47,648 bases of DNA from an uncultured Nitrospira sp. (GTDB taxonomy: Bacteria > Nitrospirota > Nitrospiria > Nitrospirales > Nitrospiraceae), in contig CABVRW010000021.1 of NCBI GenBank assembly GCA_902500785.1, forward strand, positions 9,869-57,516, written 5' to 3'. Both the position numbers and the translations under genes were made by a program. Position 1 is the first letter of the stretch. The number at the start of each line of letters is the position of its first letter. The notes below the pieces were generated by a model. The model was not told the DNA's origin and ran no database searches. It worked only from the letters and a program-made list of their open reading frames with translations. This document shows, piece by piece, positions 8,374-47,244 of this stretch.

Positions 8374-9036
8374 CTATTGCGGGGTATGGTCCGATGGGGC
8401 GCCCTTGAAATTGCCTTCCCAGGACGGATCATCGGGATGCATGATGCCTTCTCGTTTCAGGACCTTCCACGGCGTCATTAGCAGGATCCTGCAATCCAGC
8501 CAAAGCGAACAGTGCTCGACGTACCAGAGATCGAGGAGGAAACGGTGATGCCAGGAAGCGGAGTTTCGCCCATTGACCTGCGCCCACCCCGTCAGGCCTG
8601 GAGGAACGAGATGACGACGCTGCTGCTCCGGGCTGTAATGCGCGAGGTATTCCATCAGGAGGGGGCGCGGGCCGACAAGACTCATATCCCCCTTGAGCAC
8701 ATTCAAGAGTTCAGGCAACTCGTCGAGACTGGTGCTGCGCATAAATTTGCCGAATCGTGTGAGACGCTGAGTATCGGGCAACAACTGTCCTTCTGCGTCG
8801 CAGACATTGGTCATGGTACGGAACTTATACAAGGTAAAGGGTCGACCATCGAGCCCCGGACGTTGTTGAGTGAATAGGATCGGTCGCCCATGAAGAACCG
8901 AGAGCGCCAGTGCGACAAGTGCGACCACCGGAAGAATGATCGGCAAGCAGGTGATCGTCAGCATCAAGTCGAATCCACGCTTCAGCGGAAACCGCTCCCA
9001 GATCGTCTCCTCGTCTCTATCACGACGCTGATTCAT
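8374..9036 (-). CDS. Phosphoglycosyl transferase, PglC/WcaJ-type (bacterial sugar transferase)
   Basis: Starts repeat-unit assembly by transferring sugar-1-phosphate from a nucleotide sugar to undecaprenyl phosphate. At 220 residues it is a minimal PglC-like form with one N-terminal re-entrant hydrophobic helix (about 22-48). It carries YKFRTM (70-75), the catalytic Asp-Glu pair in [20 protein letters not shown] (Asp104, Glu105), GPRPLL, and [13 protein letters not shown] (146-158). With the neighbouring dehydratase, aminotransferase and acetyltransferase it probably primes the unit with a diacetamido-trideoxyhexose. This last step is inferred. Confidence 0.93.
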
Positions 9037-40779: not shown

Positions 40780-42054
40780 TTATTCTCCGCTTGTGAAAGA
40801 GGCCTGTTTGAGGTACTGCGGATTCTCACGAACCGCCCGTTTCCATGCGCCCGTTTCATCGTCGAACGTCCCCAGCCGAGGCACCTCGTAGAAATCTTCT
40901 GCAATCTTGAAATCAGCGAGCGTGACGGCTTTCACCCGATCGAATCGTGGCAAGACTTCGTGGAAGACCTCTTCAATCACGCGCGCTCGACTGGCAGACC
41001 CATCTCCGAGCACGCCGAACTCGGGAAGGAAGAGCGGCCGCTGAGTCACCGTCCCCCAGGCGGCATAGCCCGACGCCAAGGCGTCCGTGATGGACGTGCC
41101 GAGTTCTTGCTGTCGAAGTTTGGGGACGACACGTGGATCGATGAAATACGCGCTTTGCCCGACCCAATCGATATAGTCGTCGCCGGGGTAAAAATACTTC
41201 GGGTGCAACCACGGGTTATAGTCGTCATGCTGCGGGTTCATGTAATGAGAGCCGGCGTACATGAACCACGTCACGTTCCGCACATCTTCCTTCCGGAAGA
41301 TGTCGATCACGTGAATGAAGGCGTCTCTGATGCGTTCCGGCCCATCCGGCCAGGTGGGATCGCCGTACAGCCGACAGAGATGATCGGCGTCCTCCGGCCG
41401 GTCTCCGCCCGCCGTGCCGAACCCCATCAATCCCTGATAGTTAAACTCACTGAACAGGGTCAACATAATCGGATGTCCGTAGGCTTTGATCTGGCGGGCG
41501 ACGGTTACGATGTACGCATCAAAATCGCCCCGCAAGAGACGAGGAACCGTCACCGTCGGCTTGCGGAACCCGTACCAGAATAATCTGGACTCCCAATCAC
41601 AGCATTGGATGGCCCAGGCCACGGCGAGCACTCCACCCTCCGTTCGGACCCGCTCGGCAAGCTGGAGCGGACTGACGACAGACGCTTCCAACGAATCCGT
41701 GAAGGTACGGAAATGCGGTGAGGACGAGGCCCAGTCGTCGTCGGAGACCCAGTCATGAAACGTAAAGACCACGGCAGGCGTATGACGATTCTTCGTGACG
41801 AATCGTTCGTGGTCCTCCTCGATCGAGCCGATACTATAGAGCCCGATGTAGGCGCCGTTCAGTGGCGGGGTCAGCGTGACCCGCCCCCCAGGAGACGGGC
41901 GATGTCCGTTCGGCATAGGCACATCGTGTCGACAGCCTGCCGCACTCTCCGTTGCAGGCGACGACCAGGCATTCGTCGCACACAGAACTACTCCGCACAT
42001 GAGCAGTACTCTCCTCCACCAGCCCGTTCCGGATTCGGAAGCATCGTTACGCAC
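40780..42054 (-). CDS. Secreted GH26-like glycosidase
   Basis: 424 residues with an N-terminal hydrophobic segment (about 13-31, likely signal peptide) and a GH26-like TIM barrel. LNGAYIGLYS (65-74) parallels the barrel start of the plus-strand GH26-like protein. Candidate acid/base Glu203 lies in LFSEFNYQG and candidate nucleophile Glu345 in LFLPEFGVLGDG; YFYPGDDYIDWVGQSAYFID lies between. It may trim or edit the locus B polymer in the periplasm, as glycosidases in EPS operons often do. Overlaps the methyltransferase gene end by 8 nt. Confidence 0.78.
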   Translation of the reverse strand: MRNDASESGTGWWRRVLLMCGVVLCATNAWSSPATESAAGCRHDVPMPNGHRPSPGGRVTLTPPLNGAYIGLYSIGSIEEDHERFVTKNRHTPAVVFTFHDWVSDDDWASSSPHFRTFTDSLEASVVSPLQLAERVRTEGGVLAVAWAIQCCDWESRLFWYGFRKPTVTVPRLLRGDFDAYIVTVARQIKAYGHPIMLTLFSEFNYQGLMGFGTAGGDRPEDADHLCRLYGDPTWPDGPERIRDAFIHVIDIFRKEDVRNVTWFMYAGSHYMNPQHDDYNPWLHPKYFYPGDDYIDWVGQSAYFIDPRVVPKLRQQELGTSITDALASGYAAWGTVTQRPLFLPEFGVLGDGSASRARVIEEVFHEVLPRFDRVKAVTLADFKIAEDFYEVPRLGTFDDETGAWKRAVRENPQYLKQASFTSGE

Positions 42055-42841
42055 GACTCGTTCCCTTCCTCAGCTCGACGATCTGCAAATAGCCGTATCG
42101 ACGCACGAACGGAATCGATCCGGCGGCCTGATCACAACGCTGGAGCAGCGCGGTCATCCATGCCCATCGCTTCTTGAACACGTAGAAATCGAGGAGACGA
42201 AAGAACAGAAAGCTCGGAAAATGGATGGTACATGCGCCGGGGAAGGCGCTCTGCAAGGTCGCGATATCGCGACGAGTCAGTGGATGCTCGTGGTCGTCGC
42301 TGTACTGCGGAACCCCAAATTTTCCGCACACCTTGCTGCGGGCCGCCATGAGCAGCGGATTGAGCGCGGAGTTTTCGATAAAGACCGCTTTTCCTCCGGG
42401 CTTCAAGACCCGCACCAATTGACGACTGGCTTTAAGAAGATCGACGTGGTGCAAGACAAACGTGCCGAACACGACATCGAAGCTCTCATCCGGAAAATCC
42501 AGTTCCTCGAAGGGTTGGCAGAGAAAGACCACGTCGACTCCGTTCGCCTTCGCCAACCTGCGTGCCGTGTCCAATTGACCGGCTGCCGTGTCGAAGGCGG
42601 TGACGGTCGCGCCACGTTTGGCCAACATCACCGACGTGTGACCGGGACCGCAGCCACAATCCAACAGGACTTTGTCCTTCACATTACCGAGTAACGCCAG
42701 CGCATAGGCGTAGAGATCATAGAGGCCCCACAGGGTGAGCCAATAGTCATAGGGCGCATACCACCCGTCTTCTCGAACGAACCCCTCCGCCGTGGCTCTT
42801 TCCTCGTCTACCTGCATGACTCCTGCTCCTGATTCGCTCAT
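42047..42841 (-). CDS. SAM-dependent methyltransferase (class I)
   Basis: 264 residues. Rossmann motif I VLLDCGCGPGHTS (58-70), an acidic motif near AFDTAAG, FDVVFGTFVLHHVD and VLKPGGKAVFIEN. The C-terminal third, with aromatic FPSFLFFRLLDFYVFKKRW, may contact a lipid-linked substrate or membrane. Likely methylates a sugar or caps the chain. ATG 42841 overlaps the stop of the kinase-like gene (ATGA), with GGGAGGG upstream. Confidence 0.88.
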   Translation of the reverse strand: MSESGAGVMQVDEERATAEGFVREDGWYAPYDYWLTLWGLYDLYAYALALLGNVKDKVLLDCGCGPGHTSVMLAKRGATVTAFDTAAGQLDTARRLAKANGVDVVFLCQPFEELDFPDESFDVVFGTFVLHHVDLLKASRQLVRVLKPGGKAVFIENSALNPLLMAARSKVCGKFGVPQYSDDHEHPLTRRDIATLQSAFPGACTIHFPSFLFFRLLDFYVFKKRWAWMTALLQRCDQAAGSIPFVRRYGYLQIVELRKGTSRA

Positions 42842-45072
42842 ACGCCCTCCCTCCCGCCGGCCGCCACCCATCGCCCGTAAATCCACTCCGGAATGATATA
42901 CCGCCGCTTGTTCAGCACGAGTCCCAGCAAGTGCCCGCCGGCGGTCTCAATCGCCGCTATCGTCCTGCCCGCCGCCACCGCCACCGTCCGCTCCGCTTCA
43001 ATGATCAGAATGGTGCCGTCGATACCGGCAATGGCCACGCGCATTTCCGGGAACAAGGTCAGCGCCGGACCGTCGATCACAATCAGATCGAAACGATCGC
43101 GCATCGTCTTGGCGACCTCGGCCAGATGTTCGGCAAACTCCAGCGCCGTGCCGTCCCTGTTGCGGACTCGCAATCGATGGAGATACGGGCGATCCGTCGG
43201 CTCGGGAACATCCTGGAGCAGACGATCGGCGTCTCGTCCTGACGTCACAACGTTGTCGGCATGAACCGCCGCTGGTTGTTCAGGCCCGGCTCCCTCGAAG
43301 GTAATGAGCAACATGCGAAACTTTTGTTCGCTGAGCACCCGTGCGAGCGCGCCGGCGACATGTGATCGCCCCTCCCCGCGAAGGGCGCTGGTGATGAGCA
43401 GCGTTCTCAGGCCATGTTCATGGTAGGAACGAATGACGTGCTGGGCAGCTTGGCGCAGCTCAAGCTCAAAGTTCCCGGCGTCGGACGTGTCGGGACGGAC
43501 GAGCGGTAACGCGGCAAGCACCGGTCGCCCAAGAGTCTCCTCGATCTCCTCGCGGGTGACGAATGTCCGGCGCATATACTCGGACACATAGGCCGATCCG
43601 AATCCTCCGACCAATCCGATCATCAGTCCGATCACTAAATTGAGAAACTTGCGGGGATGGACCGGTTTCTGAGGAGCCATGGCATGCTCGATGGCATTGA
43701 CGTTGGAAATCCCCTTGCGGTCCAGCACTTCGTTGATACGCGACTCTTCTTCCTTTTTGAGGTAGACATCGAACGCTTCTTGCTTCACCTTGACTTCGCG
43801 CATCAATCCCTTCAGTTCCATCTCGCGTTGATCCAACGTATTGAGAGAATCTCGGTAGGATTTGAATTGCTTGGTGAGCTCCGAGAGGCGAGGTCGCAAG
43901 CTTTCTCGCCGCCCTTCCTCCGTAACCAAATTGCGCTTTAGCTCCTGGTAATTTTGGTTGAGACCGGAGGTGGCTGCGCCGGTCACCTTCGTACTCTCCG
44001 CCTGCAGACGCGCACGTACGGCGGCAATTTCCCGCACAAGTTCTGCGGCAGCCGGACTGTCCGGCACATACTGGGCATACTCCAACTCCATCTGCATCAA
44101 CCGGTTTTTGAGTTGATCCAGCATCGGATTTCGCTCCGAGACGTTTGTGAGTGGAATCGCTTCTTGTTGCCCCGCCAACCGTTCCTTCAACTTGGTGATG
44201 CGCACTTCCGTTTCAGCGACCTGCACTTGACTCTCACGGAGCGCCGCTTCAGTGTGGGTCACTTGTTGCAATAAATGCCGCTTCTGATCCTCGATGGAGA
44301 CGATGTTCCATTTGTCTTTAAACGCCTGTAACCGGAGCTCGGCCTGCTGCAATTCGCCGCGCATCTGCTTCGTCTGCTCGTCGAAGAATTCACGCGCCCC
44401 CTTGCCTTTTCGAATCGACAGCTGATGATCCATATAGATGCCCACCAAGGCATTGAGCGCATCGGCGGAGAACTCCGGATCGGGTGAATCGAGGCTGGCC
44501 ACAAACACGTGGGTTTGCCGCACGCCTTCCACATTCAGATGGGCTCTGATTTTCTGCACGGCGTGATAGTGCAGATCCTCTGGCTTCGGAACATATCCCA
44601 CCATCGTCAGTACCTGGGCAACGGGCGGCAGCACGGCCAGCTGTTTAAAGACGGTTTTCGGCATGTCAGCCACCCAATCCCAGCGCCCTCGCATAGACGT
44701 CAGCACTCGTTCGTTTCCAAAGTAGTCGACCAATTTGTCCAACAGGATCGGGCTGGTAAATATTTGCACCTCCGTCGCCACATCGTCCTTTTGGGTAATG
44801 TCGGAGGGAGTGAACACTTGCCCCGTCAACGGCGTGCTCATGCTGAACGGTGTCCGCGCATTCTGGATGAGCAAGCGAACTTCGGCACTATAGATATTCG
44901 TCATCAAGAGTGAGCCCGGACCCGCCACGATAGTCGCCACTCCTAAAATTGTGAGCAGCTTCTTCTTTTGGCGGAAGATGGTAATCAGGTGCTCTCGCAG
45001 GCCGAACGGTGATCGAGCGCCAGTGGGGGCAGATTGTGTTTCGGGTAGCCCAGCAGTGTTCGACACCTTCAT
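42838..45072 (-). CDS. Wzz/BY-kinase-like chain-length protein with degenerate P-loop
   Basis: 744 residues: first membrane helix near 38-58, long periplasmic coiled coil (about 220-470), second helix near 500-520 after QKPVHPRKF, then a BY-kinase-like cytoplasmic domain. The P-loop reads SALRGEGRSH, with Arg569 in place of the catalytic Lys. The Walker A' acidic residues are lost (MLLITFEG) while Walker B LIVIDGP (663-669) remains. There is no C-terminal Tyr-rich tail. It is probably a polysaccharide co-polymerase with a non-kinase cytoplasmic domain. Start ATG 45072 overlaps the preceding stop (TGATG), with AAAGGAG upstream; a longer reading to 45255 is spurious. Confidence 0.88.
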   Translation of the reverse strand: MKVSNTAGLPETQSAPTGARSPFGLREHLITIFRQKKKLLTILGVATIVAGPGSLLMTNIYSAEVRLLIQNARTPFSMSTPLTGQVFTPSDITQKDDVATEVQIFTSPILLDKLVDYFGNERVLTSMRGRWDWVADMPKTVFKQLAVLPPVAQVLTMVGYVPKPEDLHYHAVQKIRAHLNVEGVRQTHVFVASLDSPDPEFSADALNALVGIYMDHQLSIRKGKGAREFFDEQTKQMRGELQQAELRLQAFKDKWNIVSIEDQKRHLLQQVTHTEAALRESQVQVAETEVRITKLKERLAGQQEAIPLTNVSERNPMLDQLKNRLMQMELEYAQYVPDSPAAAELVREIAAVRARLQAESTKVTGAATSGLNQNYQELKRNLVTEEGRRESLRPRLSELTKQFKSYRDSLNTLDQREMELKGLMREVKVKQEAFDVYLKKEEESRINEVLDRKGISNVNAIEHAMAPQKPVHPRKFLNLVIGLMIGLVGGFGSAYVSEYMRRTFVTREEIEETLGRPVLAALPLVRPDTSDAGNFELELRQAAQHVIRSYHEHGLRTLLITSALRGEGRSHVAGALARVLSEQKFRMLLITFEGAGPEQPAAVHADNVVTSGRDADRLLQDVPEPTDRPYLHRLRVRNRDGTALEFAEHLAEVAKTMRDRFDLIVIDGPALTLFPEMRVAIAGIDGTILIIEAERTVAVAAGRTIAAIETAGGHLLGLVLNKRRYIIPEWIYGRWVAAGGREGV

Positions 45073-46805
45073 CACACTCCTTTCAGCAACACGCGAACGG
45101 TCCGGATGAGAATCTGCAGGTCCAACAGCAGCGAATGCCGGCGGACGTACTCGAGGTCGTATCGGATCCACTCCGAGAAGCGGTTGCGATTGCGCGCCTT
45201 CACCTGCCACAGACCCGTCAGCCCAGGAGACACGCTCAACCGCGCATCGCGCCACGTCGGGCAGAACTTCATTTCGTCATAGGCCAGCGGTCGAGGCCCG
45301 ACCAGACTCATCTCTCCGCGCAAGACGTTCAACAACTGCGGCAGCTCATCGAGACTTGTCCTGCGGAGAAGTTTCCCCATGCGGGTGATGCGCGGATCTT
45401 CTTCCAGCTTGAACATCGGTCCATCGACACTATTGCGCGCCAGCAGCTCCTTCTGACGTTGCTCGGCATCCGGCACCATAGTCCTGAACTTGTGCATCCA
45501 GAATTCCGTCCCGTTCTTTCCGCACCGTTTTTGAGAGAAGAACACCGGACCCGGTGAATCCAATTTGACCGCCAGGGCGATGAACAACATGAGCGGACCC
45601 ACGAAGATCATCCCGACGGCCGCTCCCGCAAGATCAACGACAGGTTTGATCAGGCCATATATCGATTGTTGACCGCCCCCCCTCTGCGTGGTTCCGGACG
45701 ATCGTTGAGTCCGCTTCGCCCGTTGCAGCAGCTTGTTCGGTGCCGCCTGGTTCGACGATCCATGCGGCCCATACCGAGCCGGCTTTGCCGAGGTCCAGAA
45801 CGTGCTTCGGAGGCGCATGCCCTCGGGCACCGTCTCGTCTCCGGCTACCACGGAGTATTCCACCCTGGCATTGCCCTGCACGCGCGTACCGGACCGGAGA
45901 ACGCTCTCCCGCACGAGACTTCCCTTCTCCAGATACGAAGTCGGACCGATCACCGCGGGCCCGATCAGGTGCACATAGTCTTCGACCACGCAATTGGGGC
46001 CGATTACCAACGGCCCCAATAGGAATGAACGCGGAGAAATGTCCGAGTTTTCGCCGATGACGATGTCGTCCATGCCACCGTGAGGGCCGGGACCGCGCCC
46101 GCCGTTCAGGATGTCCTTCAGCAGAATCTCTCGGTTCAACCAGATGAAATCCTCCGGTCCCGAGATCGTATATACCCCTCCCTCGATCTGGTGCGCGCGA
46201 ATCGAGCCTCCCCGGCTTCGCACCAAGGGCACCAATTGCTCGTTCACGTCAAAATATTCGTCACGAGGGACGAGTGACAGAACCTCACGGCTGAAAACAT
46301 AGACCCCGCAAGGCGCGAGCCGACTGCGACGATTTTTCGACCAATGCAGAATATTGACCCGGGAGACAAGCCCGGCCTGGTCCACTTCGACACTTTCCAA
46401 ATCGTGATCGTTTCCCACCATGCTCTGGGCGACCAGCGTGATGCCCGCGCGATGTGCCTCGTGCGCATGGAGCACGGCAGCCAGGTCCATATCGCGCAAA
46501 TAGACATTGGCATGGATGCAAAGAAAGGTCGGTGTGTCGAGAAAGTCTTCCAGTGTCTGCAAGCCACCGGCGGTTCCGCGGTACACGGACTCTGTCCGCC
46601 ATAACACGAGCATGCCGCAAGTGCGGCCGGCCAAACACACCAGCTCGCGAATATATGGGTCTTCCTCACCGGACACGATGGCAACCTCTCGGATGCCTTG
46701 CTGTTTGAGCGCCGAGAGAAGATGGTCGATCAATAACTCGTTTCCGACAGGAAACGTCAGCATCGTGCCCACCGATGGAGCGCTTTCTATGATCACGGCT
46801 TTCAT
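45072..46805 (-). CDS. Fused nucleotidyltransferase-like / left-handed beta-helix / phosphoglycosyl transferase
   Basis: 577-residue three-part protein. Residues 1-230 resemble sugar-nucleotide pyrophosphorylases ([10 protein letters not shown], then [15 protein letters not shown]), but the GxGTRL signature is missing, so this part may bind rather than activate nucleotides. Residues 245-335 are left-handed beta-helix repeats ([19 protein letters not shown]). Residues 380-577 form a phosphoglycosyl transferase with one hydrophobic helix, MHKFRTM, the catalytic Asp486-Glu487 in [20 protein letters not shown] and [15 protein letters not shown]. It would prime the locus B repeat unit on undecaprenyl phosphate. 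ATG 46805 has GGGGGAGG upstream; a longer reading to 46991 would overlap the OrfA-like gene. Confidence 0.88.
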
Positions 46806-46968
46806 ACGATGGCCTCCCCCATGAAGAGAGACACGCTTGAACCGGCCGCCCACTGCGAGGAGGGCCGAATCGATGCGAAGGGAACGAGGTGAGTCATTCT
46901 GAACACACTGTTCGCTATCCGTCGTGTGACGGGCGTCAGCAGCACTGCAGCGGATTGTTGAGACACCT

Positions 46969-47244
46969 CTAACATTCGCTGCCTCGATCATTGACCAGTG
47001 CAGATCGGAGAATGGTGTAGTCCAAAGACAGCTCGGCGACGCGATGTTTCAGTCGCCGGTTCTCTAGTTGCAAAGACCGTAAGTGGAGAACAGGGTCCAG
47101 GGTGGTGGAGAGGTGCTTCGCCCGCCAACGATAATAGGTGCTGGCAGAAATCCGATACTTCTTGCATACGCGCTTGATCCCACCCTTGATCCGTCCCTCT
47201 TTTAGGATCTGCAACTTCTTTTCTTGAGTGAATCGAGACAGCAT
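46969..47244 (-). CDS. Stand-alone IS3 OrfA-like helix-turn-helix protein (paralogue)
   Basis: 91 residues. Helix-turn-helix with VCKKYRISASTYYRWRAKHL (about 26-45) and a zipper-like tail (LRSLQLENRRLKHRVAELSLD). No OrfB, terminal inverted repeats or slippery A6G site is near. The gene sits directly upstream of the first EPS gene of locus B, 163 bp before the fused transferase. It matches the 98-residue protein at 21577-21873 in domain layout and in the C-terminal ALV...S-C pattern. Whether it is a regulator or a relic is not settled. Confidence 0.75.
   Translation of the reverse strand: MLSRFTQEKKLQILKEGRIKGGIKRVCKKYRISASTYYRWRAKHLSTTLDPVLHLRSLQLENRRLKHRVAELSLDYTILRSALVNDRGSEC

Follow-up and report, generated by a model that had tools for sequence, protein, structure and literature searches.

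A predicted catalytically dead nucleotidyltransferase–β-helix module fused to the initiating phosphoglycosyl transferase of a Nitrospira exopolysaccharide operon

Phosphoglycosyl transferases (PGTs) are the gatekeepers of undecaprenyl-phosphate pathways, and the control of entry into these pathways is poorly understood (PMC10942596). The large PGTs (WbaP, WcaJ, EpsZ; PF13727 + PF02397) act as first enzymes of Wzx/Wzy pathways and carry an N-terminal accessory half in front of the catalytic domain; in WbaP, an enzyme that UMP inhibits, PF13727 acts as a sensor of uridine nucleotides (PMC10942596), while for EpsZ a response regulator acts as the switch (PMC12802240). Fusions of PGTs with sugar-modifying and regulatory domains have been reported. 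Bifunctional monotopic PGTs, reportedly set apart as the Bi-PGT class by O'Toole in 2021, bear an extra domain on the PGT core. A nucleotidyltransferase (NTase) domain followed by a left-handed β-helix (LbH) is found in the translation factors eIF2B γ and ε, where both parts are used for assembly and the active site is unused for pyrophosphorylase chemistry. Dead NTase-LbH proteins that regulate a pyrophosphorylase are GMPPA in animals, with the LbH as main contact in GMPPA–GMPPB (PMC11228364), and KONJAC in plants (PMC9168903).

The gene described here was found in a window of 47,648 nucleotides from an uncultured Nitrospira sp.; all features given below lie on its minus strand. An open reading frame of 577 amino acids at 45072..46805 (start ATG at 46805, stop at 45072–45074) was delimited by Pfam matches and full-length relatives, and both the frame and the three-part layout proposed in the first-pass annotation were upheld. 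It comprises a degenerate NTase domain (PF00483; residues 1–238, 46092..46805; NTP_transferase match at residues 18–178, 33.9 bits vs a cut-off of 21.2), an LbH resembling that of eIF2B ε (PF25084; residues 247–335, 45801..46067; hexapeptide repeats at residues 267–298), a fast-evolving linker (residues 340–382, 45660..45788) and a monotopic PGT domain (PF02397; residues 383–577, 45075..45659; Bac_transf match at residues 387–575, 220 bits vs a cut-off of 27). PF25084 itself scored above cut-off in three relatives (L025, L027, L029). The start at 46805 is backed by the sequence MKAVI, kept in the Nitrospira copies, and by the Shine–Dalgarno-like GGGGGAGG upstream (46813..46820); a longer start at 46991 was dropped, as it is not conserved. 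An assembly artefact as source of the fusion was likewise dropped, since many independent genomes carry it. Directly upstream lies a transposase-type helix-turn-helix ORF (PF01527; 46969–47244), which may mark a boundary of the locus.

The transferase domain was found intact, as had been claimed from the letters alone: the catalytic dyad D486–E487 (45345..45350) is invariant in the family, and the re-entrant helix (about 386–418) is broken by the invariant P404, with K387 also invariant. The only hydrophobic stretch of the protein is located at about 384–418; neither PF13727 nor an N-terminal hydrophobic segment, as expected of large PGTs of the WbaP/WcaJ type, was detected in the fusion protein. 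Bac_transf score, Asp–Glu dyad and Pro-broken helix place it among the monotopic PGTs, and it is predicted to be the initiating PGT of a Wzx/Wzy exopolysaccharide operon, transferring a sugar phosphate to polyprenyl phosphate. The window also encodes, at 8374–9036, a second PGT that is small and stands alone (220 aa, PF02397 212 bits).

In Nitrospira, the fusion is the first gene of this operon, followed by genes for a Wzc-like protein, a methyltransferase, glycosyltransferases, Wzx, Wzy, Wza and sugar-nucleotide dehydratases or epimerases; GDP-mannose dehydratase-like genes are part of the locus. The start ATG of the next gene, which encodes the Wzc-like co-polymerase (42838..45072), shares bases with the stop codon of the PGT (TGATG). 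Nitrospira and two members of its sister genus g2 have the same order of genes downstream of the PGT, and in distant members the fusion gene adjoins Wza or lies within a few kilobases of it. In the aligned Nitrospira and g2 orthologues of the Wzc-like protein (42838–45072), Walker A reads GEGRS instead of GEGKS/T, and neither a Walker A' Asp nor a C-terminal Tyr cluster was seen; by these motifs it looks like a pseudokinase, so that two presumably dead enzyme domains would adjoin in the operon. Another operon protein of 424 amino acids (40780–42054), kept in the Nitrospira operons compared, has no Pfam match and by eye resembles a secreted glycoside hydrolase.

Compared with the systems above, the fusion shares the C-terminal catalytic domain and the pathway position of the large PGTs but has an NTase-LbH module in place of the accessory half that senses nucleotides in WbaP (PMC10942596). 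It shares an added domain with the bifunctional PGTs, although its added enzyme domain is predicted to be dead. With GMPPA and KONJAC it has the NTase-LbH fold in common, and like GMPPA it joins a dead NTase to an LbH; these proteins, however, act in trans on a partner pyrophosphorylase, whereas the module described here lies in cis with a transferase and has lost more of its active site. The eIF2B subunits have no link to glycan synthesis, in contrast to a fusion encoded in a glycan operon. Unlike the fusion, the UTP-glucose-1-phosphate uridylyltransferase tlr0611 (8x7s) keeps GKGTR, PK, GD, EKP and WIDIG, and its solved chain is without a PGT domain.

Active-site residues were mapped by placing the contacts of Arabidopsis VTC1 (PMC9168903) on an alignment of 14 members (the window protein and 13 relatives). 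The positions of VTC1 K23, D111, E195–K196, D219 and the sugar-binding N173 are replaced in all 14, while the equivalent of the base-loop Gly85 is kept in all 14. Parts of the pyrophosphate loop (VTC1 G9, T12, R13) survive only in three distant members (L025–L027), whose partly kept loop may represent the ancestral state. In Nitrospira members, GxGTRL is gone and the region is shortened rather than merely mutated, the remnant of the GxGTRL...PK region spanning residues 6–20 (46746..46790); the absence of this loop, noted in the first-pass annotation, thus holds, and the loss extends further than stated there, to the catalytic Lys, both metal Asp, the second catalytic pair and the sugar-binding Asn, in the window protein and in 13/13 relatives. 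The first metal-binding Asp is replaced by N100 (46506..46508; N or S in 14/14), the second by T213 (46167..46169; T, P, A, S, C, Q or V in the family). Among the stand-alone NTases of the phylum, most keep LAAGxGTR, PK, [GS]D and WxDIG where these regions aligned.

What remains is constrained. The GTAG base-binding loop (residues 77–80, 46566..46577) is kept in the family, one member having GSAG. HWSKNRR (residues 154–160, 46326..46346) corresponds to a family motif HxSxx[RK][RK] (TK in one member) that is absent from the stand-alone NTases of the phylum compared; H154 and S156 take the place of the EKP segment of active enzymes, with the register differing by 1–2 residues between alignments. 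In residues 184–193 (46227..46256), E189 replaces a catalytic Lys; this stretch was dropped as a wholly new motif because D, Q, L and P are common to 8x7s. Invariant in 14/14 are G77, A79, G80, H154, S156, Y184, D186, E189, Q190 and D219 (window-protein numbering). Since all mapped catalytic positions are lost, the NTase domain is, by every sequence criterion available, almost certainly catalytically dead; a degenerate nucleotidyltransferase fused to an intact PGT, as first described, is well supported by Pfam and alignments. The core catalytic residues were lost before the Nitrospira clade arose.

An AlphaFold2 model of the full protein built with five close rows was set aside (mean pLDDT 35). 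The second one, confined to residues 1–340, reached a mean pLDDT of 69.9, with most of the NTase core at 80–95; the LbH and the loop 153–159 were weak, leaving the NTase core as the confident part, and the pocket was judged by alignment. As the alignment contained added viral-contig NTase rows, the model tests compatibility with an NTase fold, not independence. In this sense the expected fold was recovered: VIA-align gave NTases at Z of about 22–23 (e.g. HddC 5xhw, 208 residues, 2.4 Å), and Foldseek matched 8x7s, GMPPA/GMPPB and VTC1, including VTC1–KJC2 hetero-complexes. 8x7s was the best match by both sequence and Foldseek, and the NTase-LbH half is related to cyanobacterial tlr0611 and to the GDP-mannose pyrophosphorylases.

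Full-length relatives occur in other Nitrospira (74–95% identity). The architecture was found in 11 of 29 Nitrospira genomes (a twelfth match comprised the PGT domain only) and, in a survey covering the phylum Nitrospirota, in 17 of 395 sampled genomes from five families. Across these 395 genomes, the profile separated fusions (418–521 bits) sharply from stand-alone NTases (at most 113 bits). Viral contigs scanned for the fusion family yielded one distant PGT only, and none for NTase-LbH proteins; the plasmid search returned NTases of other kinds only. In one metagenome-assembled copy (L009 2120–3850 / L065, genome G395; 88% identity), an in-frame stop codon interrupts the NTase-like domain near its beginning, either a sequencing error or a recent loss; the remaining 10 Nitrospira copies and every one of the 17 phylum matches have an open frame.

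In the PGT-domain tree, all 17 fusion rows cluster as a single clade (99/97; recovered in 100% of 200 bootstrap trees). Its nearest outside PGTs are L143, L074 (= L159) and L147/L151, of which L143 and L159 belong to the large PGTs and carry PF13727, and L147 shows a PGT domain only; L159 has N-terminal hydrophobic segments, whereas in the fusion the re-entrant helix is the sole hydrophobic segment. Most simply, the NTase-LbH module would have replaced the N-terminal half of a large PGT, a direction that we infer.

Pairwise dN/dS was mostly 0.08–0.14 for the NTase-like domain (0.22 in the closest pair), 0.05–0.12 for the PGT, mostly 0.01–0.05 for the LbH and mostly 0.2–0.6 for the linker, where it rose as high as 3; pairs with dS above 1 give rough values. 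A dN/dS of about 0.1 indicates that the NTase-like domain is maintained by selection. Conservation among the closest Nitrospira copies peaks in the LbH (about 98% identity vs 88–98% for the PGT), an imbalance not seen in GlgC, an active NTase-LbH enzyme. In distant members the order changes (PGT 57–64%, LbH 30–38%, NTase 25–28%), so the constraint on the LbH is strongest inside Nitrospira.

Taken together, the dead NTase-LbH part is probably a cytosolic module that regulates or assembles the PGT, the LbH oligomerising the protein and the rebuilt pocket binding a nucleotide or related metabolite. The module would have taken the place of the membrane bundle and PF13727 of large PGTs; the LbH would most likely hold several protein copies together, and binding in the rebuilt pocket would most likely change transferase activity, so that scarce undecaprenyl phosphate would be committed only under the right conditions. 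This reading draws on the new invariant residues at former active-site positions, on purifying selection acting on a dead domain, most strongly on the LbH and weakly on the linker, and on a single fusion clade that has PF13727-bearing large PGTs among its nearest neighbours outside. Against it, binding of a nucleotide sugar is in doubt given the loss of the sugar-binding Asn and of the pyrophosphate loop, and a conserved LbH can mean assembly alone. With the sugar contacts gone, the ligand could be a sugar-free nucleotide or something new. The nucleotide-sugar sensor suggested in the first-pass annotation is plausible by analogy with GMPPA, KONJAC and the PF13727 domain of WbaP, and it is our inference that a domain both dead and conserved senses a ligand.

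A serious rival to the sensor is a ligand-free scaffold, rather unlikely in our estimate, in which the NTase-LbH part only oligomerises the protein or docks onto Wzc or other operon proteins. The strong conservation of an eIF2B ε-like LbH within Nitrospira, the translational coupling to Wzc and the use of dead NTase-LbH domains for assembly in eIF2B γ/ε are consistent with it; yet the invariant H154, S156, E189 and GTAG loop sit at former active-site positions and are not spread over the surface. Recruitment appears improbable: here the dead module would pair with an active soluble pyrophosphorylase, possibly regulating it, and bring donor synthesis to the membrane, a thought prompted by the hetero-complexes among the nearest folds (GMPPA/GMPPB, VTC1–KJC2), the GDP-mannose dehydratase-like genes and the other NTases of the genome. 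The window's contig, however, bears no second NTP_transferase match, and the earlier proposal of a channelling scaffold is likewise without direct support, as the domain is unable to form the donor through the usual chemistry. That the N-terminal domain is still an active NTase with a rearranged active site is very improbable: the fold, the GTAG loop and new invariant polar residues are kept, but the domain has lost its catalytic Lys, its two metal Asp residues and the pyrophosphate loop, and the second metal position varies freely. A functionless decaying relic, to which the lost catalytic residues and the one early stop codon might point, is scarcely credible; the constraint data, namely a dN/dS of about 0.1, open frames in the other copies and invariant residues common to members with 25–28% NTase-domain identity, refute it at the level of the whole family.

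The evidence for a pseudoenzyme fusion is good, and the fusion does not amount to a novel type of system. Regulation or assembly of the PGT by the dead module remains the preferred reading, and it is possible, though short of probable, that a sugar-nucleotide-synthesising enzyme became a metabolite receptor fused to the transferase that uses the donor, a built-in gate distinct from PF13727. As a natural swap of the accessory half, the fusion offers a clean system for studying whether nucleotide or nucleotide-sugar sensing controls PGTs and, if sensing is true, would bring the GMPPA theme into bacteria.
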